Shown: positions 1-15,126 of the stretch, piece after piece
Numbering within the stretch: the first letter of the stretch is position 1
Layout of the letters: each line of letters starts with the position of its first letter
Assembly (NCBI RefSeq): GCF_014297285.1
Contig: NZ_JACOQI010000028.1
Span: 1-30,458, forward strand
Reading direction: 5' to 3'
From: Dysosmobacter segnis
GTDB taxonomy: Bacteria > Bacillota > Clostridia > Oscillospirales > Oscillospiraceae
Length of the DNA: 30,458 nt
Position numbers and translations under genes: made by a program
Notes under the pieces: generated by a model
Database searches by the model: none
The model's input: the letters and a program-made list of their open reading frames with translations, nothing else
What the model was told of the DNA's origin: nothing

Positions 1-53
1 AACACCCATACATCCTTGAAAGCAGCGATATCAGCACTATTGAAATTAGACAT
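1..53 (-). CDS. etfA: Electron transfer flavoprotein alpha subunit, N-terminal fragment
   Basis: Only the first 17 codons are inside the window (reading MSNFNSADIAAFKDVWV). The end is cut by the left edge. The start ATG lies 18 nt after the etfB stop codon, behind an AAGGGGA ribosome binding site. The short 'YKDVWVF'-like opening is typical of EtfA proteins of butyrate producers, and position directly after etfB supports the call strongly. EtfA carries the electron-shuttling FAD and, with EtfB, couples NADH oxidation to crotonyl-CoA and ferredoxin reduction (known for the family). It is the sixth gene of the minus-strand operon. The identification depends more on context than on the few visible residues. 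Confidence 0.85.
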   Translation of the reverse strand, partial: MSNFNSADIAAFKDVWV

Positions 54-887: not shown

Positions 888-2027
<1,140 letters not shown>

Positions 2028-2214: not shown

Positions 2215-3693
2215 TCAGTCCACAATGCCGGCGATGTCCTTAGCAAGCTGCTTCTTACCCTGGATGTTGCCCTGACGGGCGATCATGATGCGCTGGGCCT
2301 GAGGAGAACCGGCGCCGTGCATGGACTCGGTGCGGTAGCCGACAGCGGCTGCGCCCAGGCACAGGTTCTCGATGAAGCGCATGATGCGCTGACGGTTCTC
2401 GGTGGAGACACCCTCGCGGGCGGCAAAGAACTTGTTGCAGATCTGGCCGATGGTCTCGCCGTTCCGGCCAACAACCATATCGCTGTGGAAGTCCACCTGA
2501 GAGGGCATGGTGACCATCAGGCCGCCGGCAATGTCCTCTGCCAGACGCACGATCTCATAGGGGAAGCGGGTGACGTTCTGCTTGCAGACGTTGGCCAGCA
2601 GCAGGTCGATCTGATAGTTGCCCGCCTTGGTCTTAAAGCCCTGGGCGGAACAGGCGATGCCGCAGCAGAACAGGGTCTCGTTCAGGTGGGTCATCTCGAT
2701 GAGCTTGTCCTTGACGGCGGAGGCCTTCTCCACGCCGTTGTACTCAGCGGCCAGAGCAGCGGCGCCGATCAGGGTGTCGCCCACGCCCACCTTGCAGCCG
2801 CCGTAGGACTGACGGTGATAACCGGCGAAGCGCTCCACGATCATGCCGGCGAACTCATACTCGCCGTTGAGGAAGATGTACTCGTTGGGGATGAACACGT
2901 GATCCAGAACCACCAGAGCCTCCTGACCGCCGAACTTGGCGTTGCCCACGTCGATAGAGGCGTCCTCCTCCATCTTCCGGGTGTCGCAGGACTGACGGCC
3001 GTAGATCATGTACATGCCCTCGGCGTCGGTGGGGCAGGCAAAGCTGACGGCCCAATCCTTATCGGCCTCACCCATGGAGATGGTGGGCATGAAGATGTGC
3101 CAGTGGGAGTTGATGGAGCCGGTCTGGTGGCACTTGGCACCACAGACCACGATGCCGTCGGGACGGCGCTCCACAACATGAACGTACATGTCGGGATCAG
3201 CCTGCTGGCTGGGGGCCTTGGAGCGGTCGCCCTTGGGGTCGGTCATAGCGCCGTCCACGGTGAGGTCGTTGTCCTGAACGTAGGTCAGGAACTTCTTGAA
3301 GTTCTCGTGATAGTGGGTGCCGTACTTCTCGTCGATCTCATAGGTGGTGGAGAAGACGGAGTTAAAGGCGTCCATGCCCACGCAGCGCTGGAAGCAGGAA
3401 GCGGTCTTCTGGCCCAGCAGACGCTGCATCTTCACCTTGTTCATCAGGTCCTCAGTGGACTGATGCAGGTGGGTGAAGCGGTTGATGGTGTGACCGGTGA
3501 GGCTGGACTTCACGGTCATCAGCTCAGCGTACTGGGGATCCTGAGCCAGAGCGTAGGTCATGGCCACGCAGTTGATGGAGGGGCGGATCATGGGGTGGTC
3601 CACCCAGTTCTCGATCTTCTCGCCGAACATGTAGACGCGGGTGTTCAGCTTCCGCAGGGACTCAATGTATTCTTGGGGGGTCATCAATGCCAT
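2215..3693 (-). CDS. abfD: 4-hydroxybutyryl-CoA dehydratase / vinylacetyl-CoA delta-isomerase
   Basis: 492 residues, close to the about 490 of Clostridium aminobutyricum AbfD. The fold is that of the 4-hydroxyphenylacetate 3-hydroxylase flavoprotein family, but all four [4Fe-4S] ligands of AbfD are present with one-residue offset: C100 and C104 in ASCFQRCVG, and H293 and C300 in AGYHRQSYGGC. The Glu corresponding to E257 is at 258 (GGQEAL). These residues are diagnostic of the oxygen-sensitive radical dehydratase that converts 4-hydroxybutyryl-CoA to crotonyl-CoA. The start MALMTPQEY has AGGAGG 10 nt upstream. It sits between a CoA-transferase that could make its substrate and an acyl-CoA dehydrogenase that would consume its product. 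No 4-hydroxybutyrate dehydrogenase or GABA transaminase is in the window, so the source of 4-hydroxybutyrate is not shown. Confidence 0.95.
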   Translation of the reverse strand: MALMTPQEYIESLRKLNTRVYMFGEKIENWVDHPMIRPSINCVAMTYALAQDPQYAELMTVKSSLTGHTINRFTHLHQSTEDLMNKVKMQRLLGQKTASCFQRCVGMDAFNSVFSTTYEIDEKYGTHYHENFKKFLTYVQDNDLTVDGAMTDPKGDRSKAPSQQADPDMYVHVVERRPDGIVVCGAKCHQTGSINSHWHIFMPTISMGEADKDWAVSFACPTDAEGMYMIYGRQSCDTRKMEEDASIDVGNAKFGGQEALVVLDHVFIPNEYIFLNGEYEFAGMIVERFAGYHRQSYGGCKVGVGDTLIGAAALAAEYNGVEKASAVKDKLIEMTHLNETLFCCGIACSAQGFKTKAGNYQIDLLLANVCKQNVTRFPYEIVRLAEDIAGGLMVTMPSQVDFHSDMVVGRNGETIGQICNKFFAAREGVSTENRQRIMRFIENLCLGAAAVGYRTESMHGAGSPQAQRIMIARQGNIQGKKQLAKDIAGIVD

Positions 3694-3757: not shown

Positions 3758-5314
3758 TTAATCGTTAGCCAGACCCATCAGTTCCTCACGGAAGATGCGC
3801 TCATCCATGAGCTTCAGGTCATCGGCGATTTTGGGCATGAACTCCATCTGATCCAAAACCTGGGTCTGGAGGTCAATGCCGGGGGCGATCTCCACCAGCG
3901 TCACGCCCTCGGGCCGCAGCTCGAACACGGCGCGCTCGGTGATGTACAGAACGGGCTGGTGCACCTTGTTGGCGTAATCGCCGGAGAAGGTGATCTGCTC
4001 TACCTTGTTGACGAACTTCTTCTTGGCACCCTCCTGGGTGATGACCAGCTTGCCGTCCTTGCACTCGGTCTTGAGGCCCTTGGCGGTAAAGGTGCCGCAG
4101 TAAACGACCTTCTTGGCGTTCTGGGTAATGTCGATGAAGCCACCGGCGCCGGCCAGACGGGTGCCGAACTTGGAGACGTTCAGGTCGCCGTTGGGAGCGG
4201 TCTCGGCCAGGCCCAGGAAGGCCACGTCCAGGCCGCCGCCCTGATAGAAGTCGAACTGGACGTTGTGGTCCAGAATGGCCATGGAGTTGGCTGCGCCGCC
4301 GAACTGGGTGCCGCCGTAGGGCACACCGGCGATGGAGCCGGCTTCCACGGTCAGAGTCATCTTGTTGGAGATGCCCTCCTCAGCGCAGACGTTGGCGATC
4401 TTCTCGGGAGCGCCGGTGCCCAGGTTCACGATGGCGTCCTGAGGCAGCTCCATAGCGGCCCGGCGGGCGATGATCTTCTTGGCGTCCATGGGGATGGGGG
4501 GGATATCGTCCACGGGGATGCGGAACTCACCGGAGAGAGCTCCGTCATAGGGCATGCCCAGGCACTGGTTGTTTTCCTCGGGAGAACCCACCACGATGGC
4601 ATCCACATAGATGCCGGGGATCTTCACCAGACGGGGGTCCAGGGTGCCGCCCTGGACGATCTTTTCCACCTGGACGATGACGATACCGCCGGAGTTCTTG
4701 GTGGCCTGGCACTGGGCGGTGACGTCCAGAGGGCCGATCTCGCGGTGGACGGTGCAGTTGCCGTATTCATCGGCGTAGGAGCCGCGGACCAGGCACACAT
4801 TGATGGGGATGGGCTTGTAGAGCAGGCGCTCCTCACCGTCAATGTTCACTAGCTTCACCAGGTCTTCCTTGGTGCACTCGTTGAGCTTGCCACCCTCGTG
4901 ACGGGGGTCTACGAAGGTGTTCAGGCCAACGTGGGTGATGGTGCCGATGTTGTGGGCGGCGATGTCGCGGTACATGTGGGTGATGACGCCCTGAGGCAGG
5001 TTATAGGCCTCCAGCTTGTTGGCCAGAGCCAACTCGCCCAGCTTGGCGGCGCGGTCCCAGTGACCGCCGACTACCCGCTTGCACATACCCTCGTGGCCGA
5101 AGTGGTCGCCGCCGGTGCCGTCCCGGTGGCCCTGACCGGCTGCAAAGAACAGAGTCAGGTCGCGGGGATGGCCGGTTTCCACGAAACGGTTTTCCAGAGC
5201 CTTGGTCAGCGCCTCGGGGCAGGCGCAGCTAACGAAGCCGCCGGTGGAGACGGTGTCGCCGTCCTTGACCATCAGGGCCGCTTCCTCAGCGGTAATGACA
5301 CGTACTTTCTTCAT
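3758..5314 (-). CDS. Class I acyl-CoA:carboxylate CoA-transferase (Pct/YdiF type)
   Basis: 518 residues with fused alpha and beta halves, the size of propionate CoA-transferase (Pct) and E. coli YdiF. The alpha half opens MKKVRVITAEEAALMVKDGDTVSTGGF and has the GAGQGHRDGTG-like glycine-rich loop at about 58-67 (AAGQGHRDGTG). The beta half has NLGTGAPEKIANVCAEEG, then TVEAGSIAGVPYGGTQFG, whose Glu is the expected thioester-forming nucleophile. Class I transferases move CoA from acetyl-CoA or another acyl-CoA onto a carboxylate. Context suggests 4-hydroxybutyrate as acceptor, so that it feeds the dehydratase encoded next. This differs from C. aminobutyricum, whose 4-hydroxybutyrate CoA-transferase is a shorter Cat2/AbfT-type protein. 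Propionate, lactate or acetate cannot be excluded. Confidence 0.88.
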   Translation of the reverse strand: MKKVRVITAEEAALMVKDGDTVSTGGFVSCACPEALTKALENRFVETGHPRDLTLFFAAGQGHRDGTGGDHFGHEGMCKRVVGGHWDRAAKLGELALANKLEAYNLPQGVITHMYRDIAAHNIGTITHVGLNTFVDPRHEGGKLNECTKEDLVKLVNIDGEERLLYKPIPINVCLVRGSYADEYGNCTVHREIGPLDVTAQCQATKNSGGIVIVQVEKIVQGGTLDPRLVKIPGIYVDAIVVGSPEENNQCLGMPYDGALSGEFRIPVDDIPPIPMDAKKIIARRAAMELPQDAIVNLGTGAPEKIANVCAEEGISNKMTLTVEAGSIAGVPYGGTQFGGAANSMAILDHNVQFDFYQGGGLDVAFLGLAETAPNGDLNVSKFGTRLAGAGGFIDITQNAKKVVYCGTFTAKGLKTECKDGKLVITQEGAKKKFVNKVEQITFSGDYANKVHQPVLYITERAVFELRPEGVTLVEIAPGIDLQTQVLDQMEFMPKIADDLKLMDERIFREELMGLAND

Positions 5315-5350
5315 ATCCTAAATCCTCTATTTAAATAAGAATTTTGAACA

Positions 5351-5365
5351 GCCGGTAAGACCGGC
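5351..5365 (-). other. Small intercistronic hairpin
   Basis: GCCGGT-AAG-ACCGGC, a 6-bp stem with 3-nt loop, lies in the 69-nt gap between the crotonase stop and the CoA-transferase start. There is no U-run after it. It is the weakest of the three hairpins in this operon. Confidence 0.45.
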
Positions 5366-5383: not shown

Positions 5384-6184
5384 TTACTTGTTCTGGAAGT
5401 GCTTTTCCTTGCGCTTTTCAACGAAGGCGCTCATGCCTTCCTTCTGGTCGGCGGTGGCGAAGCACATGGCGAACAGCTCGTTCTCCAGAGCGATGCCGTC
5501 GGCAATGTCCATCTGCATGCCGCGGTCGATACAGGCCTTGGAATACTTCACGGCGATGGGAGCGTTGGCGGTGAAGGACTTGGCCATGGCGATGGCACCG
5601 GGGATCAGCTCCTCGGGAGCATACACGGCGTTGACCAGGCCGATCTTCTCAGCCTCAGCGGCGCCGATGACCTTGCCGGAGAAGATCAGCTCCTTGGCCT
5701 TGGCGATGCCCACGCGGCGGGGCAGGCGCTGGGTGCCGGAGAAGCCGGGGGTGATGCCCAGGCCAACCTCGGGCTGGCCGAACTTGGCGCCGCCCTTGCC
5801 CTCAGCGTTGGGGCCGGCAGCCAGGATGATGTCGCAGCTCATGGCCAGCTCGCAGCCGCCGCCCAGAGCGAAGCCGTTGACAGCAGCGATGGTGGGGATC
5901 TCCAGCTTCTCAATGCGGCGCATCAGGGCGCTGCCCCGCTGGCCCCACTTGCGGCCGCCGGCCACATCCAGGGGGAGCTGCTCGCCGATGTCGGCACCGG
6001 CCACAAAGGAACGGCCCTCGCCGGTGATGATGAGAGCGCCCAGCTCGGCGTCCTTCTCCACCTCGGTGATGGCCTGCTCCAGGTCGCCGATGACGGTGGA
6101 GTTCAGTGCGTTCAGCGCCTCGGGACGGTTGATGGTGAGAATGCCGATGTTTTCCTGCTTTTCATAACGAAGGGTCTGATACAT
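5384..6184 (-). CDS. crt: Enoyl-CoA hydratase (crotonase)
   Basis: 266 residues from MYQTLRYEKQENIGILTINRPEALNALN, the standard crotonase length and opening. The oxyanion-hole segments are SFVAGADI (about 59-66) and NGFALGGGCELA (103-114). Both catalytic glutamates are present: E112 in GGGCELAM and E139 in FGQPEVGLG, with a short insertion (PNAEGKGG) between them. It should interconvert crotonyl-CoA and 3-hydroxybutyryl-CoA, linking the 4-hydroxybutyrate branch to the acetoacetyl-CoA route. The start at 6184 has GGAGG 9 nt upstream. An upstream in-frame TTG at 6202 precedes that site and is unlikely. This is the first gene of the minus-strand operon and follows the sigma-54 promoter by about 105 nt. 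Confidence 0.93.
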   Translation of the reverse strand: MYQTLRYEKQENIGILTINRPEALNALNSTVIGDLEQAITEVEKDAELGALIITGEGRSFVAGADIGEQLPLDVAGGRKWGQRGSALMRRIEKLEIPTIAAVNGFALGGGCELAMSCDIILAAGPNAEGKGGAKFGQPEVGLGITPGFSGTQRLPRRVGIAKAKELIFSGKVIGAAEAEKIGLVNAVYAPEELIPGAIAMAKSFTANAPIAVKYSKACIDRGMQMDIADGIALENELFAMCFATADQKEGMSAFVEKRKEKHFQNK

Positions 6185-6288
6185 AAGTAGATTCCTCCTC
6201 AAAAATAATATGTAAGCGTCTGTGCTGACGGAGATGTGGGTCCAGCTGCACCCGTCAGCCTATCCATGGTTGTACAGTGAGTAATATA

Positions 6289-6303
6289 GCAATTTATGTG
6301 CCA
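6289..6303 (-). promoter_or_regulatory. Sigma-54 (-24/-12) promoter of the 4-hydroxybutyrate operon
   Basis: Read on the minus strand the sequence is TTGGCAC-ATAAA-TTGCT, an exact match to the TGGCAC-N5-TTGC core with the flanking bases usually favoured. It lies about 105 nt before the crotonase start, with no gene in between and a sigma-54 activator gene divergent on the other side. Transcription should start near 6277. The match and its location make this the firmest promoter call in the region. Confidence 0.9.
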
Positions 6304-6415
6304 AGATTGGCAAGCTGTTTTTCACAAAAATAGGGCTGACAACTGTGCGGGTTCGACAAAAAAACCGGGGTATTTCGGCGGTGTTTTCCTTTTTTCAGCG
6401 ACCTCATTCGGGAAT

Positions 6416-6431
6416 TATTCAAAAATGAATA
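6416..6431. promoter_or_regulatory. Candidate activator-binding inverted repeat (UAS)
   Basis: TATTCA-AAAA-TGAATA is a perfect inverted repeat, 113 bp upstream of the -24 box of the sigma-54 promoter, the distance expected of an enhancer site. Its right part, TCAAAAATGAATAG (6419-6432), recurs exactly at 6570-6583, next to the -10 box of the activator's own promoter. That fits one protein activating the operon from 6416 and repressing itself at 6570 (inference). Confidence 0.55.
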
Positions 6432-6456
6432 GGCTGGATGCGCATATATCTTTCCC
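6425..6456 (+). repeat. Short dispersed repeat, copy 1
   Basis: ATGAAT, GGCTGG, ATGCGCAT and CTTTCCC occur in this order here. A similar series (ATGAAT, AGCTGAT, ATGCGCAT, TCTTTATCCC) is found at 21678-21717, also in a non-coding stretch and in the same orientation upstream of another operon. The longest exact shared word is short, so this may be a regulatory motif, a decayed repeat, or chance. Confidence 0.35.
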
Positions 6457-6561
6457 TGCGCAGGACATCCTTTCGGCAAGAACCACGAAAGCCGGCGGTT
6501 ATTTTTTTACAAAAGATACAGAAGAAACTTGGCACTGGCCCTTTCTATTCGCTTTTGAATA

Positions 6562-6570
6562 TGCTATAAT
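6562..6570 (+). promoter_or_regulatory. Extended -10 sigma-70-type promoter of the activator-rpoN operon
   Basis: TGCTATAAT is a perfect extended -10 element, 36 nt before the activator start codon. The -35 region (TTTCTA at a 17-bp spacing) is poor, as is common with extended -10 promoters. The repeat TCAAAAATGAATAG begins at the last base of the -10 box, so a protein bound there would block initiation. Confidence 0.6.
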
Positions 6571-6605
6571 CAAAAATGAATAGATCACACGCGGGAGGTA
6601 CTCTC

Positions 6606-8036
6606 ATGGCGCATACACCTGACCTTCCTCATTTCTTTGAGGAAAATATCAATCTGGAGGGACTTTTCGATATCCTCAGCCCCAAAAACAATCTGGTCCT
6701 GGCAGACGATATGATGCTCTCTGACGCAGACGGCATCATTCTCCGAGTCAGTGAGAACTATGAGCGGAACTTTGGCTTTACCCACGATTCCATCGTGGGT
6801 AAGTCGGCTTTTGATCTGGAAGCGAACGGGACCTTCCGGCCCTGTATCACTGCGGAGGTCATCCGGCAGAAGAAAAAGATCACCGCCACCCAGACCATCA
6901 ACCACACCCATAAAAATGTCATGACGGTGGGAATTCCGCTGTTTGACCAAAACGGTGTGCTGAAATATGCCGTGTGCTTCAACACGGTGTCCATGGAGCA
7001 AATCAACACCATTCAGCAGAACTACCGGCATTTACAGGACTCCTTGCAGCAGTATACGCAGGAGATCGCGGAACTGCGGCTCCGGGCCACCGCCACGGAT
7101 CTGGTGGTGAAGAGCCCTGCCATGCAGCGGTTATGGACACTGATCCTGAATACCGCCAACACGAAGGCCAATATTCTCATCACCGGGGAGACCGGCGTGG
7201 GCAAAAGCGCAGTGGCCAAGGCCATCCACGCCATCAGCAACCGGGCCAACGGCCCCTTTATCGAGGTCAACTGCGCGGTGCTCCATGAAAACCTCATTGA
7301 ATCCGAGCTGTTCGGCTATGAAAAGGGAGCCTTTACCGGCGCGGCCTCTGCCGGTAAGATTGGTAAGATCGAACTGGCCAACCACGGCACCCTGTTTCTG
7401 GATGAGATCGGAGAGCTGCCGCCTCATATTCAATCTAAGCTGTTGCAGCTCATTCAGGAAAAGACCATCGAGCGGGTGTCCGGTACCAAGCGCATTGAGT
7501 TGGATTTCCGTCTGTTGGTGGCCACTAACCGCAATCTGGAGGAGGAGGTGCAGCGGGGGCTGTTCCGTTCGGACCTTTTCTACCGGCTGAACGTCATCCG
7601 GGTCCACATTCCCCCTCTGCGGCAGCGCCCTGAGGATATCCTGCCTATGGCGCATCAGTTTTTGGAGCGGTTCTGCAAGGAATACGGCAAGCAGCTGGCG
7701 TTAAGTCCCCGGTTTGTGGCCTTTCTGGAGCAATATCCCTGGCCCGGCAATGTGCGTCAGCTGGAAAACCTGATGGAACGGCTGGTCATCACCGCCCAGA
7801 ATCCGATTTTGGACATTACGGCCCTGCCGCTGGAATACAACAGCGGCGGCAGCGCACCGGACCTCCCCTCTCAGGAGGGGACTCTGGCGGAGCGGATGGA
7901 TGCCTTCGAGGGACAGATCATCCGGGATTCCTACCGCCGCTGCGGCACCACGGTGGCTGTGGCGAAGGAACTGGGCATCTCTCAGGCCACCGCTGTCCGG
8001 AAAATCGCCAAATATGTGAAGGACCGGAAGGAATGA
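6606..8036 (+). CDS. Sigma-54-dependent transcriptional activator with PAS sensor domain
   Basis: 476 residues from MAHTPDLPHF, chosen because GGGAGGT stands 6 nt upstream. An earlier in-frame ATG at 6576 lies at the predicted transcription start. Domains in order: PAS-like sensor (about 30-130, DADGIILRVSENYERNFGF), a short coiled linker (about 132-160), the AAA+ domain with Walker A GETGVGKS (194-201), the sigma-54 contact loop GAFTGA (241-246) and Walker B GTLFLDEIGE (261-270), then a C-terminal Fis-type helix-turn-helix (about 440-470, VAVAKELGISQATAVRKIAKY). It is divergent from the operon carrying a sigma-54 promoter and is its obvious activator. The PAS domain probably senses a small metabolite. 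4-hydroxybutyrate or an acyl-CoA is a guess from context. It is cotranscribed with rpoN. Confidence 0.93.
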   Translation: MAHTPDLPHFFEENINLEGLFDILSPKNNLVLADDMMLSDADGIILRVSENYERNFGFTHDSIVGKSAFDLEANGTFRPCITAEVIRQKKKITATQTINHTHKNVMTVGIPLFDQNGVLKYAVCFNTVSMEQINTIQQNYRHLQDSLQQYTQEIAELRLRATATDLVVKSPAMQRLWTLILNTANTKANILITGETGVGKSAVAKAIHAISNRANGPFIEVNCAVLHENLIESELFGYEKGAFTGAASAGKIGKIELANHGTLFLDEIGELPPHIQSKLLQLIQEKTIERVSGTKRIELDFRLLVATNRNLEEEVQRGLFRSDLFYRLNVIRVHIPPLRQRPEDILPMAHQFLERFCKEYGKQLALSPRFVAFLEQYPWPGNVRQLENLMERLVITAQNPILDITALPLEYNSGGSAPDLPSQEGTLAERMDAFEGQIIRDSYRRCGTTVAVAKELGISQATAVRKIAKYVKDRKE

Positions 8037-8043
8037 AGCTGTT

Positions 8044-9399
8044 ATGAATCTCATTTCTTTAAAAACAGAACTGCGGCAGGAGCTGAAGCTGACGCCGCAG
8101 CTACTGCAATCCATGGAAGTCTTGCAGATGAATTCTCAGGAGTTGCTGGACTATCTGGGGAATCTCTCCGAGGAGAATCCCACCTTGGAACTTTCGGAGG
8201 CCTCGGAGCTTCGCTCTGCCTATGCGGAGCTGCGGCAGAAAGCCAGTTGGCTGGACGCGGGGACCTTTGGGACCTCCTTTGCCCATGAGGAGGATGCCCC
8301 ACCGGAGCCGGGAGCGACTGATAAGGAGCTGGACAGCCTGTCTGCGTTTCTCTGCGATCAGTTGGAACGGAAACGACTGCCGAAGCCCATGCTGGCCCTG
8401 TGTAAATATATGGCGGAGCTGGTGGACGAGGACGGATATCTGACGCAGGAGGATCTGGACGGCCTGACAGAAATGAAGATCCCCCAGACGATGGTAGATC
8501 AGGCGCTGGATGCGATTCAGTCCTTGGAGCCTGCCGGTGTGGGTGCCCGGGATCTGTCGGAGTGTCTGGTGCTTCAGCTGAGCCGCCGGAAGGACAACGT
8601 TCCCTACGCTATGGACATTGCCGCACGGTTCCTCACGGAACTGAGCCGCAGCCACTATGGGCCCATCACCAAGGCCCTTGGGGCCAGTATCTCTGAAATT
8701 CAGGCGGCGGAGAAGGCCATCGCTGCCTTGGATCCTCACCCCGGTCAGGCGTTTCAGCCGGCAGAGCCGACCCTCTATGTCCGGCCGGATGTGTTCATTG
8801 TGGAGTTGGAAGGGGAATTGCAGGTGCTGCTGAACGAATACTATCTTCCAAAGGTCACTGTGAACCCTTATTACAGCAGTATGGCCAAGGAGAGTGACGA
8901 TCCGGAGGCCCGCACTTATTTAAAGGAGAAGCTGCGGCAGACCAAATGGCTGCTGGACAGTCTGGAACGCCGGGGCAGCACCCTGCGCCGCTGCGCGCAG
9001 GCCATTCTGGACGCGCAGAGACCATTCTTTTCCGGGCAGACTGCGGAACTGTCACCCATGAAGCTGTCCTCCCTGGCGGAGACACTGGACCTGCACCCTT
9101 CCACCGTTTCCCGGGCCGTGCGGGATAAATACCTGCAATGCCGTCAGGGAATCTATCCGCTGCGATACTTTTTCAGTCGGGCGGTGGGACAGCAAGGACT
9201 GTCCCGTCAGGCGGTGAAGCAGCGGATGCTGCTTCGCTTCAAGGATGAGGATTCCAGCCATCCTCTCAGTGATCAGGCACTTTGCGACCTGCTGGCGGAG
9301 GAGGGGATTTTTCTGGCCCGCCGCACTGTGGCAAAATATCGGATCGAGCTGGGAATCGGTTCCTCCACGGCCCGCCGGGCCCGGAACCGTGGAAAATAA
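8044..9399 (+). CDS. rpoN: RNA polymerase sigma-54 factor
   Basis: 451 residues, typical of clostridial sigma-54. Region I at the N-terminus (LKTELRQELKLTPQLLQSMEVLQMNSQELLDYL) binds core and activator. The core-binding part follows, then the DNA-binding helix-turn-helix (LSSLAETLDLHPSTVSRAVRDKYL, about 340-363). The C-terminus carries the RpoN box as ARRTVAKYR (about 426-434), which reads the -24 element. The gene starts 7 nt after the activator stop codon, so the two are almost certainly cotranscribed. rpoN is more often found apart from its activators. Placing it directly behind one activator suggests a small, dedicated sigma-54 regulon. A strong intrinsic terminator follows. Confidence 0.96.
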   Translation: MNLISLKTELRQELKLTPQLLQSMEVLQMNSQELLDYLGNLSEENPTLELSEASELRSAYAELRQKASWLDAGTFGTSFAHEEDAPPEPGATDKELDSLSAFLCDQLERKRLPKPMLALCKYMAELVDEDGYLTQEDLDGLTEMKIPQTMVDQALDAIQSLEPAGVGARDLSECLVLQLSRRKDNVPYAMDIAARFLTELSRSHYGPITKALGASISEIQAAEKAIAALDPHPGQAFQPAEPTLYVRPDVFIVELEGELQVLLNEYYLPKVTVNPYYSSMAKESDDPEARTYLKEKLRQTKWLLDSLERRGSTLRRCAQAILDAQRPFFSGQTAELSPMKLSSLAETLDLHPSTVSRAVRDKYLQCRQGIYPLRYFFSRAVGQQGLSRQAVKQRMLLRFKDEDSSHPLSDQALCDLLAEEGIFLARRTVAKYRIELGIGSSTARRARNRGK

Positions 9400-9466
9400 G
9401 GCATGATGAGTTAAGATCAAAAGACGGAAGGCCCTGATTAGCTTCCGCTGACACCTATTTAATTTT

Positions 9467-9504
9467 AGAGGTATGCGTTGATTTGATGCATACCTCTGTT
9501 TTTT
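9467..9504 (+). terminator. Intrinsic terminator after rpoN
   Basis: AGAGGTATGC and GCATACCTCT form a 10-bp stem with an 11-nt loop, followed by GTTTTTT. It closes the activator-rpoN transcript. Confidence 0.9.
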
Positions 9505-9641: not shown

Positions 9642-9670
9642 TTGCAATCAAGGTTGTCAGTTTGTATAAT
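9642..9670 (+). promoter_or_regulatory. Sigma-70-type promoter of the regulator-symporter pair
   Basis: TTGCAA, a 17-bp spacer and TATAAT. The start codon of the regulator lies 28 nt after the -10 box, giving a very short leader with AAAGGGGTGAG as the ribosome binding site. Confidence 0.8.
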
Positions 9671-9697
9671 AGGCGTATGAATAAAGGGGTGAGCTTT

Positions 9698-10348
9698 ATG
9701 GACAATGACGGATTGACCCAGTATATGCGGATTGCAATCTCTGTGGCTGAGCGGATCGCGGCGGGAGAACTGCGGGAAGGGGAAAAAATTTCCGGTCGGT
9801 CCAAGCTCTCGTCGGAATATGAGGTGTCGCCGGAGACTGTCCGGCGGGCCATCCAGCTTCTCAGTGATATGCGGGTGGTGGCGGTGAAGGAACAGAGCGG
9901 CGTATATGTGCTCTCTGCGGACAATGCCAAGCGCTATCTGCAAAACTTTGAGAACAGGGCAGATCTGATGAGCAAACGCCGGAAACTGCGGGAACTGATC
10001 GAGGAAAAGGAGGCGCTGAACCGCCGCATGGGGGAACTGTGCCAGAGTATTCTGGAGGATACCCTTTATCCTGTTCAACCGGCGGAGACGCTGCCTACGT
10101 TTAGCTGCCGGGTGCCGGATGGCTGGTACGGCATCGGAAAAAATTTGGGTGACCTGCGATTCTGGCAGGCTACCGGCGCTACGGTGGCTGCCATCCGCCG
10201 GGGCACCACGGATATTCTTTCCCCCGGCCCTTACGCGGAGCTGTACGCCGGGGATACCGTTATTTTTGTGGGCGAAAAGAAAGCGAAGGAGGCGGTAGAA
10301 CGCTTCCTGAACACAGAGCAGGAAACCGGATCCGGCAAGGGTCCTTAA
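9698..10348 (+). CDS. GntR-family regulator with RCK_C (TrkA-C) domain, BusR-like
   Basis: 216 residues from MDNDGLTQYMRIAIS. A GntR winged helix-turn-helix occupies about residues 5-75 (KLSSEYEVSPETVRRAIQLLSD is the recognition part). A charged coiled coil follows (about 85-118, RKLRELIEEKEALNRRMGEL), and then an RCK_C/TrkA-C domain (about 130-205, GKNLGDLRFWQATGATVAAIRRG and AGDTVIFVGEKKAKEAVERFL). This domain order is that of BusR, a c-di-AMP-responsive repressor of osmolyte uptake in lactic acid bacteria. RCK_C domains commonly bind c-di-AMP. It is followed 17 nt later by a sodium:solute symporter, which fits osmolyte control. The ligand is inferred from architecture. The start was chosen by its ribosome binding site; in-frame ATGs at 9662 and 9677 lie at or near the -10 box. 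Confidence 0.88.
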   Translation: MDNDGLTQYMRIAISVAERIAAGELREGEKISGRSKLSSEYEVSPETVRRAIQLLSDMRVVAVKEQSGVYVLSADNAKRYLQNFENRADLMSKRRKLRELIEEKEALNRRMGELCQSILEDTLYPVQPAETLPTFSCRVPDGWYGIGKNLGDLRFWQATGATVAAIRRGTTDILSPGPYAELYAGDTVIFVGEKKAKEAVERFLNTEQETGSGKGP

Positions 10349-14132: not shown

Positions 14133-14996
14133 TTATTTTTCGTAGAATTTGATCAGAGCCTGAGTGCCCAGATCACCGCAGCCTCGGTCGATCAAGGATT
14201 GACAGTTGGAAAGCGCCTGCTGCAAAACATTCAGATCCAGCCCGGCGTTTTCTGCTTCCTCTTCCGCAAGACGCATATCTTTCACAAAGTGCTTCATGAA
14301 GAAGCCGGGGGCAAAGTCACCTGTCAGGATCTTCTTGCCCTGAAAGTCCAGCTGCTTGCTGCCAGCGGCTCCGGTGGATACGGCGCCCAGCAAAGTATTC
14401 CCGTCTAACCCCTCCGCCTTGGCATAGGCCAGGGCTTCACACACGCCGGAGAGCGCTCCGGCGATCATGATCTGATTGGCCATTTTGGCGTGTTGGCCGC
14501 AGCCTGCGGGACCGAAATAGGTGATGTTAGTGCCCATTGCCTGGAAAATGGGGAGGCAAGCGTCGAAATCTGCCTGATCGCCGCCTACCAGAATGGAAAG
14601 CGTTCCAGCACGGGCCCCGCTGTCACCGCCGGTGACGGGGGCGTCCAGCACTCGCAGTCTCCGGGCGGCGCCCTCTTGGTAGATCCGCTGGGCCAGGGTG
14701 GGGCTGGTGGTGGTCATGTCGATGAGCGTCATACCCTTGGCGGCACTGTCCAGAATATTGCCGGGGGCAAAGTAGACCTCCTCCACATCCTTGGGGAAGC
14801 CCACCATGGTGATGACCACCTCGCTGGCCTTTACGCACTCCGCAATGCTGCCGTGGGGTACGGCACCCTCGGATATCACGTCTGCCACTTTTTCCGGGTG
14901 ACGGGCATAAATGTGGACCTCGTAGCCCGCTTTCATCAGGTTCCGCACCATGGCTTTCCCCATGATGCCTACGCCGATCCAGCTGATCCTCTGCAT
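14133..14996 (-). CDS. NAD(P)-dependent 3-hydroxyisobutyrate dehydrogenase-family reductase
   Basis: 287 residues from MQRISWIGVGIMGKAMVRNLMKAGYEVHIYARHPEK. The Rossmann fingerprint GVGIMGKAM and the beta-2 Arg give a preference hint for NADP(H), though this is not decisive. The substrate-binding signature is DAPVTGGDSGARAGTLSILVGG (about 119-140). The catalytic Lys is in GCGQHAKMANQI (about 166-177), and the C-terminal domain continues to KFYEK. The family reduces beta-hydroxyacid semialdehydes: 3-hydroxyisobutyrate, tartronate semialdehyde, succinic semialdehyde or glyoxylate. Succinic semialdehyde reduction would make 4-hydroxybutyrate and tie this gene to the first region, but nothing in the sequence proves that. 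The start has GGAGGG 5 nt upstream; an in-frame extension to 15035 exists. Confidence 0.9.
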   Translation of the reverse strand: MQRISWIGVGIMGKAMVRNLMKAGYEVHIYARHPEKVADVISEGAVPHGSIAECVKASEVVITMVGFPKDVEEVYFAPGNILDSAAKGMTLIDMTTTSPTLAQRIYQEGAARRLRVLDAPVTGGDSGARAGTLSILVGGDQADFDACLPIFQAMGTNITYFGPAGCGQHAKMANQIMIAGALSGVCEALAYAKAEGLDGNTLLGAVSTGAAGSKQLDFQGKKILTGDFAPGFFMKHFVKDMRLAEEEAENAGLDLNVLQQALSNCQSLIDRGCGDLGTQALIKFYEK

Positions 14997-15009
14997 ATTG
15001 ATCCCTCCT

Positions 15010-15033
15010 GTGTCATTTTTTTCAGCATGACAC
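15010..15033 (-). promoter_or_regulatory. Inverted repeat upstream of the reductase gene
   Basis: GTGTCAT and ATGACAC form a perfect 7-bp inverted repeat around a 10-nt run-rich loop, immediately before the ribosome binding site of the reductase gene. It could be a repressor site or a leader hairpin. TTGACA lies just upstream on the minus strand, but no convincing -10 box follows at the normal distance. Confidence 0.35.
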
Positions 15034-15126
15034 ATTTAAAGAGGAGTGTCAAGAGAAACAACTGTCCTTGTTGCAAATACACATAAAATTGATAGGAAAA
15101 GCACGGAAAATTTGACATCTGAAATC

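Follow-up and report, generated by a model that had tools for sequence, protein, structure and literature searches.

The control region between two divergently transcribed gene groups of Dysosmobacter segnis (Bacillota; Clostridia; Oscillospiraceae) was analysed in a stretch of 30,458 nucleotides, here called the window, which corresponds to positions 1 to 30,458 of contig NZ_JACOQI010000028.1 (assembly GCF_014297285.1). The minus strand carries crt, a CoA transferase gene, abfD, an acyl-CoA dehydrogenase gene (acd), etfB and etfA, and the plus strand carries ebp, encoding a sigma-54 activator (enhancer-binding protein, EBP), followed by rpoN, encoding sigma-54. A preliminary description made from the letters of the window had proposed a -24/-12 site preceding the six-gene operon and a divergent unit for activator and sigma factor; both are borne out, and all six genes are found, with etfA cut by the window edge. 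Comparison with related genomes suggests that the EBP most probably activates the sigma-54 promoter of crt-etfBA via three palindromic upstream activating sequences (UAS1-3) and is likely to repress its own ebp-rpoN unit, the operon promoter being interleaved with sigma-70-like hexamers. The genes and elements concerned are the following.

1..53, minus strand: start of etfA, cut at the window edge; its N-terminal residues MSNFNSADIAAFKDVWV are identical to the start of the full etfA in the related locus L159
72..872, minus strand: etfB, electron transfer flavoprotein subunit (NF042971 508.2 bits, cut-off 475; PF01012)
888..2027, minus strand: acyl-CoA (butyryl-CoA-type) dehydrogenase (acyl-CoA dehydrogenase Pfam domains; NF042972 523 bits, under the cut-off of 640)
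2215..3693, minus strand: abfD, predicted 4-hydroxybutyryl-CoA dehydratase / vinylacetyl-CoA isomerase (PDB 1u8v)
3758..5314, minus strand: CoA transferase, YdiF/FadX-like (PDB 2ahu, YdiF, 454.1 bits; NF052271 424 bits, under the cut-off of 750)
5384..6184, minus strand: crt, crotonase (enoyl-CoA hydratase), first gene of the operon (PF00378 210.7 bits; NF004475 341.8 bits, under the cut-off of 394)
6283..6313, minus strand: sigma-70-like hexamers TTGCCA-N19-TATATT with TGC before the second, agreeing with the consensus at 10 of 12 positions and interleaved with the -24/-12 site
6288..6303, minus strand: putative sigma-54 promoter TGGCAC-ATAAA-TTGCT (-24 TGGCAC, -12 TTGC)
6416..6431, no strand assigned: UAS3, palindrome TATTCAAAAATGAATA, centred 146.5 bases before the putative crt start
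6546..6561, no strand assigned: UAS2, palindrome TATTCGCTTTTGAATA with one mismatch, directly upstream of the ebp extended -10
6562..6570, plus strand: extended -10 TGCTATAAT of the form TGnTA(T/C)A(A/C)T, putative sigma-70 promoter of ebp-rpoN
6567..6582, no strand assigned: UAS1, a palindrome match, TAATCAAAAATGAATA, with one mismatch at a base common to the -10
6606..8036, plus strand: ebp, sigma-54 activator of 476 amino acids with PAS, AAA+ (GAFTGA) and HTH parts (PF13426, PF00158, PF25601 and PF18024 above cut-offs)
8044..9399, plus strand: rpoN, sigma-54 of 451 amino acids (TIGR02395 380.2 bits, cut-off 277.35; AID, CBD and DBD domains)
9466..9498, plus strand: terminator-like hairpin (15 pairs) and T run after rpoN, a pattern match only, such matches being no commoner in the window than in shuffles (5 found, mean 4.4)

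The AbfD sequence aligns with the solved 4-hydroxybutyryl-CoA dehydratase 1u8v over residues 3-490, near its full length, with 918.6 bits, and by this close match the same activity is predicted for it, whereas the CoA transferase encoded beside abfD is here YdiF/FadX-like. The preliminary description had the operon lead from 4-hydroxybutyrate to butyryl-CoA, which is incomplete in that the first gene encodes a crotonase that could divert crotonyl-CoA to 3-hydroxybutyryl-CoA. The EBP shows the domains of the activator family (PF00158 with 220.8 bits, GAFTGA in the translation, HTH domain PF18024 with 31.6 bits against a cut-off of 27); its identity as the proline reductase regulator PrdR was rejected (NF041552 349 bits, cut-off 795). 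RpoN scores above cut-off for three Pfam domains (AID, core-binding, DNA-binding) and for TIGR02395, and is at most 72% identical to the RpoNs found in the genome collection. The two genes nearly abut, the stop of ebp lying at 8036 and the start of rpoN at 8044. Some gene starts had to be moved: ebp most likely begins at 6606 and not at 6576, as indicated by the ribosome site gggaggt and by an identical database protein of 476 residues, crt at 6184 and not at 6202, as read from its ribosome site and from the alignment of related regions, and the acyl-CoA dehydrogenase gene at 2027.

Related loci were found by short peptide patterns of the window RpoN, and the sample leans to close relatives. 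The operon lies beside ebp-rpoN in the same order in 13 related loci, some of them cut by contig ends (crt and the CoA transferase are missing from this position in L020, the CoA transferase alone in L034); together with the window they make up 14 linked regions, which were selected for their gene order at a stage when the palindromes had not yet been recognised. The operon, with three palindromes and a -24/-12 site, lies apart from ebp-rpoN in 9 of 22 genomes. These nine unlinked genomes form one clade with support 100/100, nested inside the linked genomes in an RpoN tree that was rooted at its midpoint and in which the forks separating the window, L009 and L017 are not strongly supported.

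The pattern TGGCACN5TTGCW has a single exact match in the 30,458 bases, at 6288-6303 on the minus strand, compared with a mean of 0.01 in shuffles, of which 1 in 100 reached one match; the usual -12 numbering puts the start near 6277, in agreement with the position proposed earlier. If the match had arisen by chance, the operon would be constitutive, and it speaks for this that the pattern with two mismatches allowed occurs in the window about as often as in shuffled sequence (18 found, 17.0 expected, no enrichment). An exact match, on the other hand, rarely arises by chance, and TGG(C/T)A(C/T)-N5-TTGC, a form that tolerates C or T at two positions in the relatives' crt promoters, is found in 14 of 14 linked regions by alignment and in 9 of 9 unlinked ones, occupying the corresponding position in all 23 operons. 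Rarity and conservation together rule out a chance site, to which we assign next to no probability.

Three palindromes of the consensus TATTCA-N4-TGAATA, which the preliminary description did not list, occur in the crt-ebp intergenic region with at most one mismatch each. When up to two mismatches are allowed, the whole window contains these three alone (0.53 expected; three reached in 1 of 100 shuffles), and among 5000 shuffles of the intergenic region, searched with one mismatch permitted, none gave two or more palindromes and 7 gave one or more. Exact palindromes are present in 22 of 27 related genomes, with 42 sites in total, all upstream of crt or, in G020, of abfD (these sites, the EBP counts and the strict-site numbers given below were tallied by hand from tables), and the reversed pattern used as a control matched in one genome of the 27, G012. 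The same 22 genomes carry an EBP ortholog at 80-86% identity, and exact palindromes are absent from the five genomes without the ortholog, whose best EBP is 37-46% identical; Fisher's probability for this split is 1.2e-5, uncorrected for kinship. In 200 genomes of the family a palindrome was seen in 14, with two close together in G002 and G182 only, and G182 carries the same EBP, palindromes, -24/-12 element and crt; for the other 12, operon genes were found in none of the 8 loci read (4 were unread).

The spacing of the sites is conserved as well. UAS1 and UAS2 are 21 bp apart in all 23 operons (those of the window and of 22 genomes, with as many as two mismatches tolerated), and the centre of UAS3 lies 145.5-148.5, 156.5-159.5 or 166.5 bp upstream of the putative start, in steps close to one helical turn. 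Perfect palindromes are typical of many dimeric repressors, and the sites could thus bind another regulator, for instance a repressor, with the EBP acting elsewhere or via other sites. We regard this as very improbable, given that the palindromes track the presence and absence of the EBP (22/22 versus 0/5) and stand at one place per genome, with UAS3 at a distance usual for EBP sites, namely 100-250 bp (Nie et al., 2019, PMC6615313; here and below, statements on cited papers refer to excerpts of their text). Predicted binding of UAS1-3 by the EBP is therefore the reading that we follow. With one cluster of exact sites per genome, the EBP looks dedicated to this operon, and the joint presence and joint absence of motif, promoter and EBP support the earlier proposal that the EBP and the sigma-54 promoter would control it.

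Between UAS2 and UAS1 an extended -10 is found in 14 of 14 linked regions and in 0 of 9 unlinked ones. UAS1 overlaps and UAS2 abuts this element in all 14 linked regions, both being predicted EBP sites. UAS1 of the linked regions always breaks the palindrome at the base that is common to the -10, while in the unlinked regions this base fits and other mismatches occur. In none of the 8 loci read did the DNA upstream of the moved ebp contain a palindrome, even with three mismatches allowed (up to 400 bases; about 250 in L022; L021 was unreadable). Since the palindromes stay with the unlinked operon and none lies upstream of the moved ebp, they appear to be part of the operon, and where the two units are linked they lie on the putative ebp promoter as well. 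As UAS1 and UAS2 stand 21 bp apart around the ebp-rpoN promoter, bound EBP should repress its own gene and rpoN; self-repression is the simplest reading of the layout and is likely, as with PspF and SoxR. The sequence TTGGCACTGGCCCTTTC near 6529 on the plus strand was considered as a sigma-54 promoter for ebp and rejected, being without a -12 TTGC.

The sigma-70-like hexamers that overlap the -24/-12 site are the reason why the earlier wording of a sigma-54-gated pathway may be too strong. A match of at least 9 of 12 hexamer positions with at least 5 in the -10 is found in 20 of 23 crt promoters, the window included, versus 2 of 21 other strict sigma-54 sites (those of 62 with a locus, some of them likely chance sites judging from a control of 11 versus 76), a comparison that ignores relatedness; the strict hexamer pattern occurs in 7 of the 23 crt promoters of the EBP-bearing set. 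Three genomes within the group are without the EBP, G007 alone and G012 together with G013, which by parsimony on the RpoN tree makes two losses. All three have neither palindromes nor a -24/-12 site in the 286-300 bases before crt, where TTGAAA-N17/18-TATAAT is present. An abfD match is absent from G007 and reaches 92% in G012 and G013; in G007 the sequence runs unbroken through the point at which ebp is absent, and TGCTATACT lies 77 bases before rpoN.

From these data it could be argued that sigma-70 is the main driver of crt, that the sigma-54 site serves chiefly to hold sigma-70 back until the EBP comes into play, and that loss of the EBP frees the sigma-70 promoter. The interleaved hexamers and the three EBP-less genomes with hexamers but without -24/-12 fit such a scheme, as does the competition of sigma-54 with sigma-70 at overlapping Escherichia coli promoters (PMC4551910). 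Three conserved UAS in a fixed layout favour real activation instead, the hexamer spacer of the window measures 19, and 3 of 23 crt promoters fall below the threshold used. We consider a sigma-70-driven operon rather doubtful and continue to favour activation by the EBP. The EBP-less operons at L164, L165 and L007 have a near-consensus sigma-70 promoter where relatives have a sigma-54 one, and it is possible that a change of sigma factor has been caught here in related genomes.

Several points weigh against the combined reading of activation, self-repression and an interleaved promoter. A sigma-70 scan of the window listed neither the crt nor the ebp candidate, the latter presumably being missed because of its poor -35, and the spacer of 19 at crt is long for sigma-70. 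Self-repression is not required, because the unlinked genomes keep UAS1 and UAS2 without the ebp promoter, so that the sites serve at least the operon. Phasing to the helix is weak, in that periods of 10 and 11 describe the UAS3 positions almost as well as one of 10.5 does, and the UAS2-UAS3 distances favour no phase. The unlinked operons were chosen via exact palindrome matches, so that at least one palindrome is there by construction, the sequences are related and the counts therefore not independent, and many genomes are metagenome bins, which makes the absence of a gene less certain.

The preliminary description had further regarded the locus as a self-contained package whose sigma factor serves this operon alone. 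The rarity of rpoN beside an activator, which it had also asserted, holds in a class sample: an EBP lies within the 4-5 kb fetched on each side of rpoN in 1 of 60 loci, these being the best-scoring of a 245-genome sample, excluding G002 and one second G359 match, with several cut by contig ends. In the single case, L268 (G431, rpoN at 3995-5353), the EBP is a frame of 732 amino acids directly upstream on the same strand. The same scan found an EBP in 21 of 25 Oscillibacter-type loci, missing it in L007, L012 and L013 as well as in L021, where a contig end cuts the locus; as the scan had been built on these EBPs, this is a weak control. In 230 of 231 locus pairs RpoN shows lower conservation than the adjoining EBP (mean identity 70.1% versus 84.1%), the reverse of what might be expected for a global sigma factor.

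A sigma factor dedicated to this one operon could draw on the rare co-location, on the lower conservation of RpoN, as might follow from few clients, and on G003 and G009, which show this one EBP alone. These two are metagenome bins of 1.9 Mb and 1.2 Mb that may be incomplete, and the remaining 25 of 27 relatives have 2-10 EBPs scoring above 100 bits (range 1-10, median 3), with two in G002, the genome of O. valericigenes An890. Each of the 27 has one strong rpoN match; a second, weak and partial match of 20.0-22.3 bits occurs in three relatives, one of which was counted above the cut-off with its neighbours. Strict -24/-12 sites number 76 in the relatives, 14 at this operon and 62 elsewhere, with 11 for the reversed-pattern control. 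With several EBPs per genome and 62 of 76 strict sites elsewhere, sigma-54 serves other targets in the relatives and is not confined to one, and a sigma factor dedicated to the operon in the window is unlikely. What stands of the self-contained package is an activator that looks dedicated; sigma-54 does not, and the operon is unlinked in 9 of 22 genomes. We retain an apparently dedicated EBP that would act with a sigma-54 serving other operons as well.

Three further places in the window were noted. A hydroxyacid dehydrogenase gene (14133-15035) of the tartronate semialdehyde reductase / 3-hydroxyisobutyrate dehydrogenase group, under the cut-offs of the listed families, could encode a semialdehyde reductase; it was considered as a pathway member but had no match among the related loci compared. 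GntR-type regulator gene 9662-10348, with a TrkA_C domain, lies just upstream of a sodium:solute symporter gene. The segment 17168-21567 holds a member of the tryptophanase family (NF009709, 625 bits), in which the aligned part exceeds by about 80 residues the portion of the profile that it covers. Behind it lies a gene that by eye resembles sodium:neurotransmitter-type symporters, and a regulator-like gene is on the other strand; neither of these two had a family match in the profile search.

In Clostridium, control of butyrate operons by EBPs, and of an abfD operon by XanR, has been published as a prediction, with sigma-54 binding shown for six promoter fragments (PMC6615313). CrbR, XcgR, YctR and XanR resemble the present system in that one EBP is assigned a target operon, usually nearby, that has a -24/-12 promoter and frequently more than one UAS (Nie et al., 2019, PMC6615313), and XanR shares with it the assignment to an abfD operon, although that operon has different genes (PMC6615313). 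For fifteen EBP groups the same source gives TGT/ACA inverted repeats with a 10-12 bp spacer, unlike the TATTCA-N4-TGAATA found here, a comparison that excludes the motif of XanR, and its main text mentions neither Oscillibacter nor 'rpoN' (it uses the name sigL). The AbfD family (COG2368) has also been described as being under sigma-54 control in Clostridia, and rpoN genes as lying behind sigma-54 promoters in some classes (PMC12316311).

PspF and the SoxR of B. thuringiensis are activators that lower their own expression via the enhancer of the target (PMC3709507, PMC4941409), and SoxR is likewise encoded by a divergent gene with a promoter independent of sigma-54 (PMC3709507, PMC4941409); the present case differs in that rpoN lies within the presumed self-repressed unit and that the repression is a prediction. 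NorR uses three enhancer sites in norR-norVW (PMC2941729) but has a GAF domain and responds to NO, and in the excerpts of that paper rpoN is not mentioned beside norR (PMC2941729). Cereibacter (Rhodobacter) sphaeroides ties specialised RpoN paralogues to a cognate activator (PMC11999139, PMC12316311), with four rpoN copies as opposed to one in the relatives searched here. Overlap of -24/-12 with -35/-10 elements is known from sigma-54 competition at sigma-70 promoters of E. coli (PMC4551910), where a repressive effect was shown, whereas in the present case the operon that follows the conserved overlap has predicted EBP sites. In open-licence papers no description of the locus was found, and while EBP control of butyrate and abfD operons is known, we did not find described there the EBP group with its site, rpoN in a self-controlled unit, or the interleaved promoter and what becomes of it in genomes lacking the EBP.

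On the most probable reading, the region would control an operon for 4-hydroxybutyrate fermentation in a gut Clostridium resembling Oscillibacter. For this the comparison supplies the genes, the sites, their conservation, the way in which they occur or are lacking together, and one motif cluster in each genome, and from it we infer binding, activation, self-repression, sigma-70 activity, signal and flux. The EBP made from the divergent gene would bind the three palindromes UAS1-3 and, upon a signal sensed by its PAS domain, open the sigma-54 promoter of crt-CoA transferase-abfD-acd-etfBA. Bound EBP would at the same time repress its own gene and hence probably the cell's only sigma-54 gene, and the interleaved sigma-70-like hexamers may provide basal transcription or be blocked by sigma-54 polymerase. 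A wider, tentative extension, possible though we would not expect it to hold in full, is a switch of two layers, in which the activator induces one operon and throttles the only sigma-54 gene, sigma-70 uses the composite promoter when sigma-54 or the activator is missing, the use of 4-hydroxybutyrate feeds back on all other sigma-54 operons, and lineages that lose the activator revert to sigma-70 without a new promoter.

If this is true, the switch of a butyrate pathway in gut bacteria is defined and its DNA site predicted, so that the inducer can be sought directly. A single sigma-54 gene would then be governed by the activator of one pathway, which is an unusual position in a regulatory network. 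The relatives offer natural experiments, in which the operon stands apart, the activator is missing, or the sigma-54 site is lost with sigma-70 elements present, from which it could be learnt how a promoter passes from one sigma factor to another.

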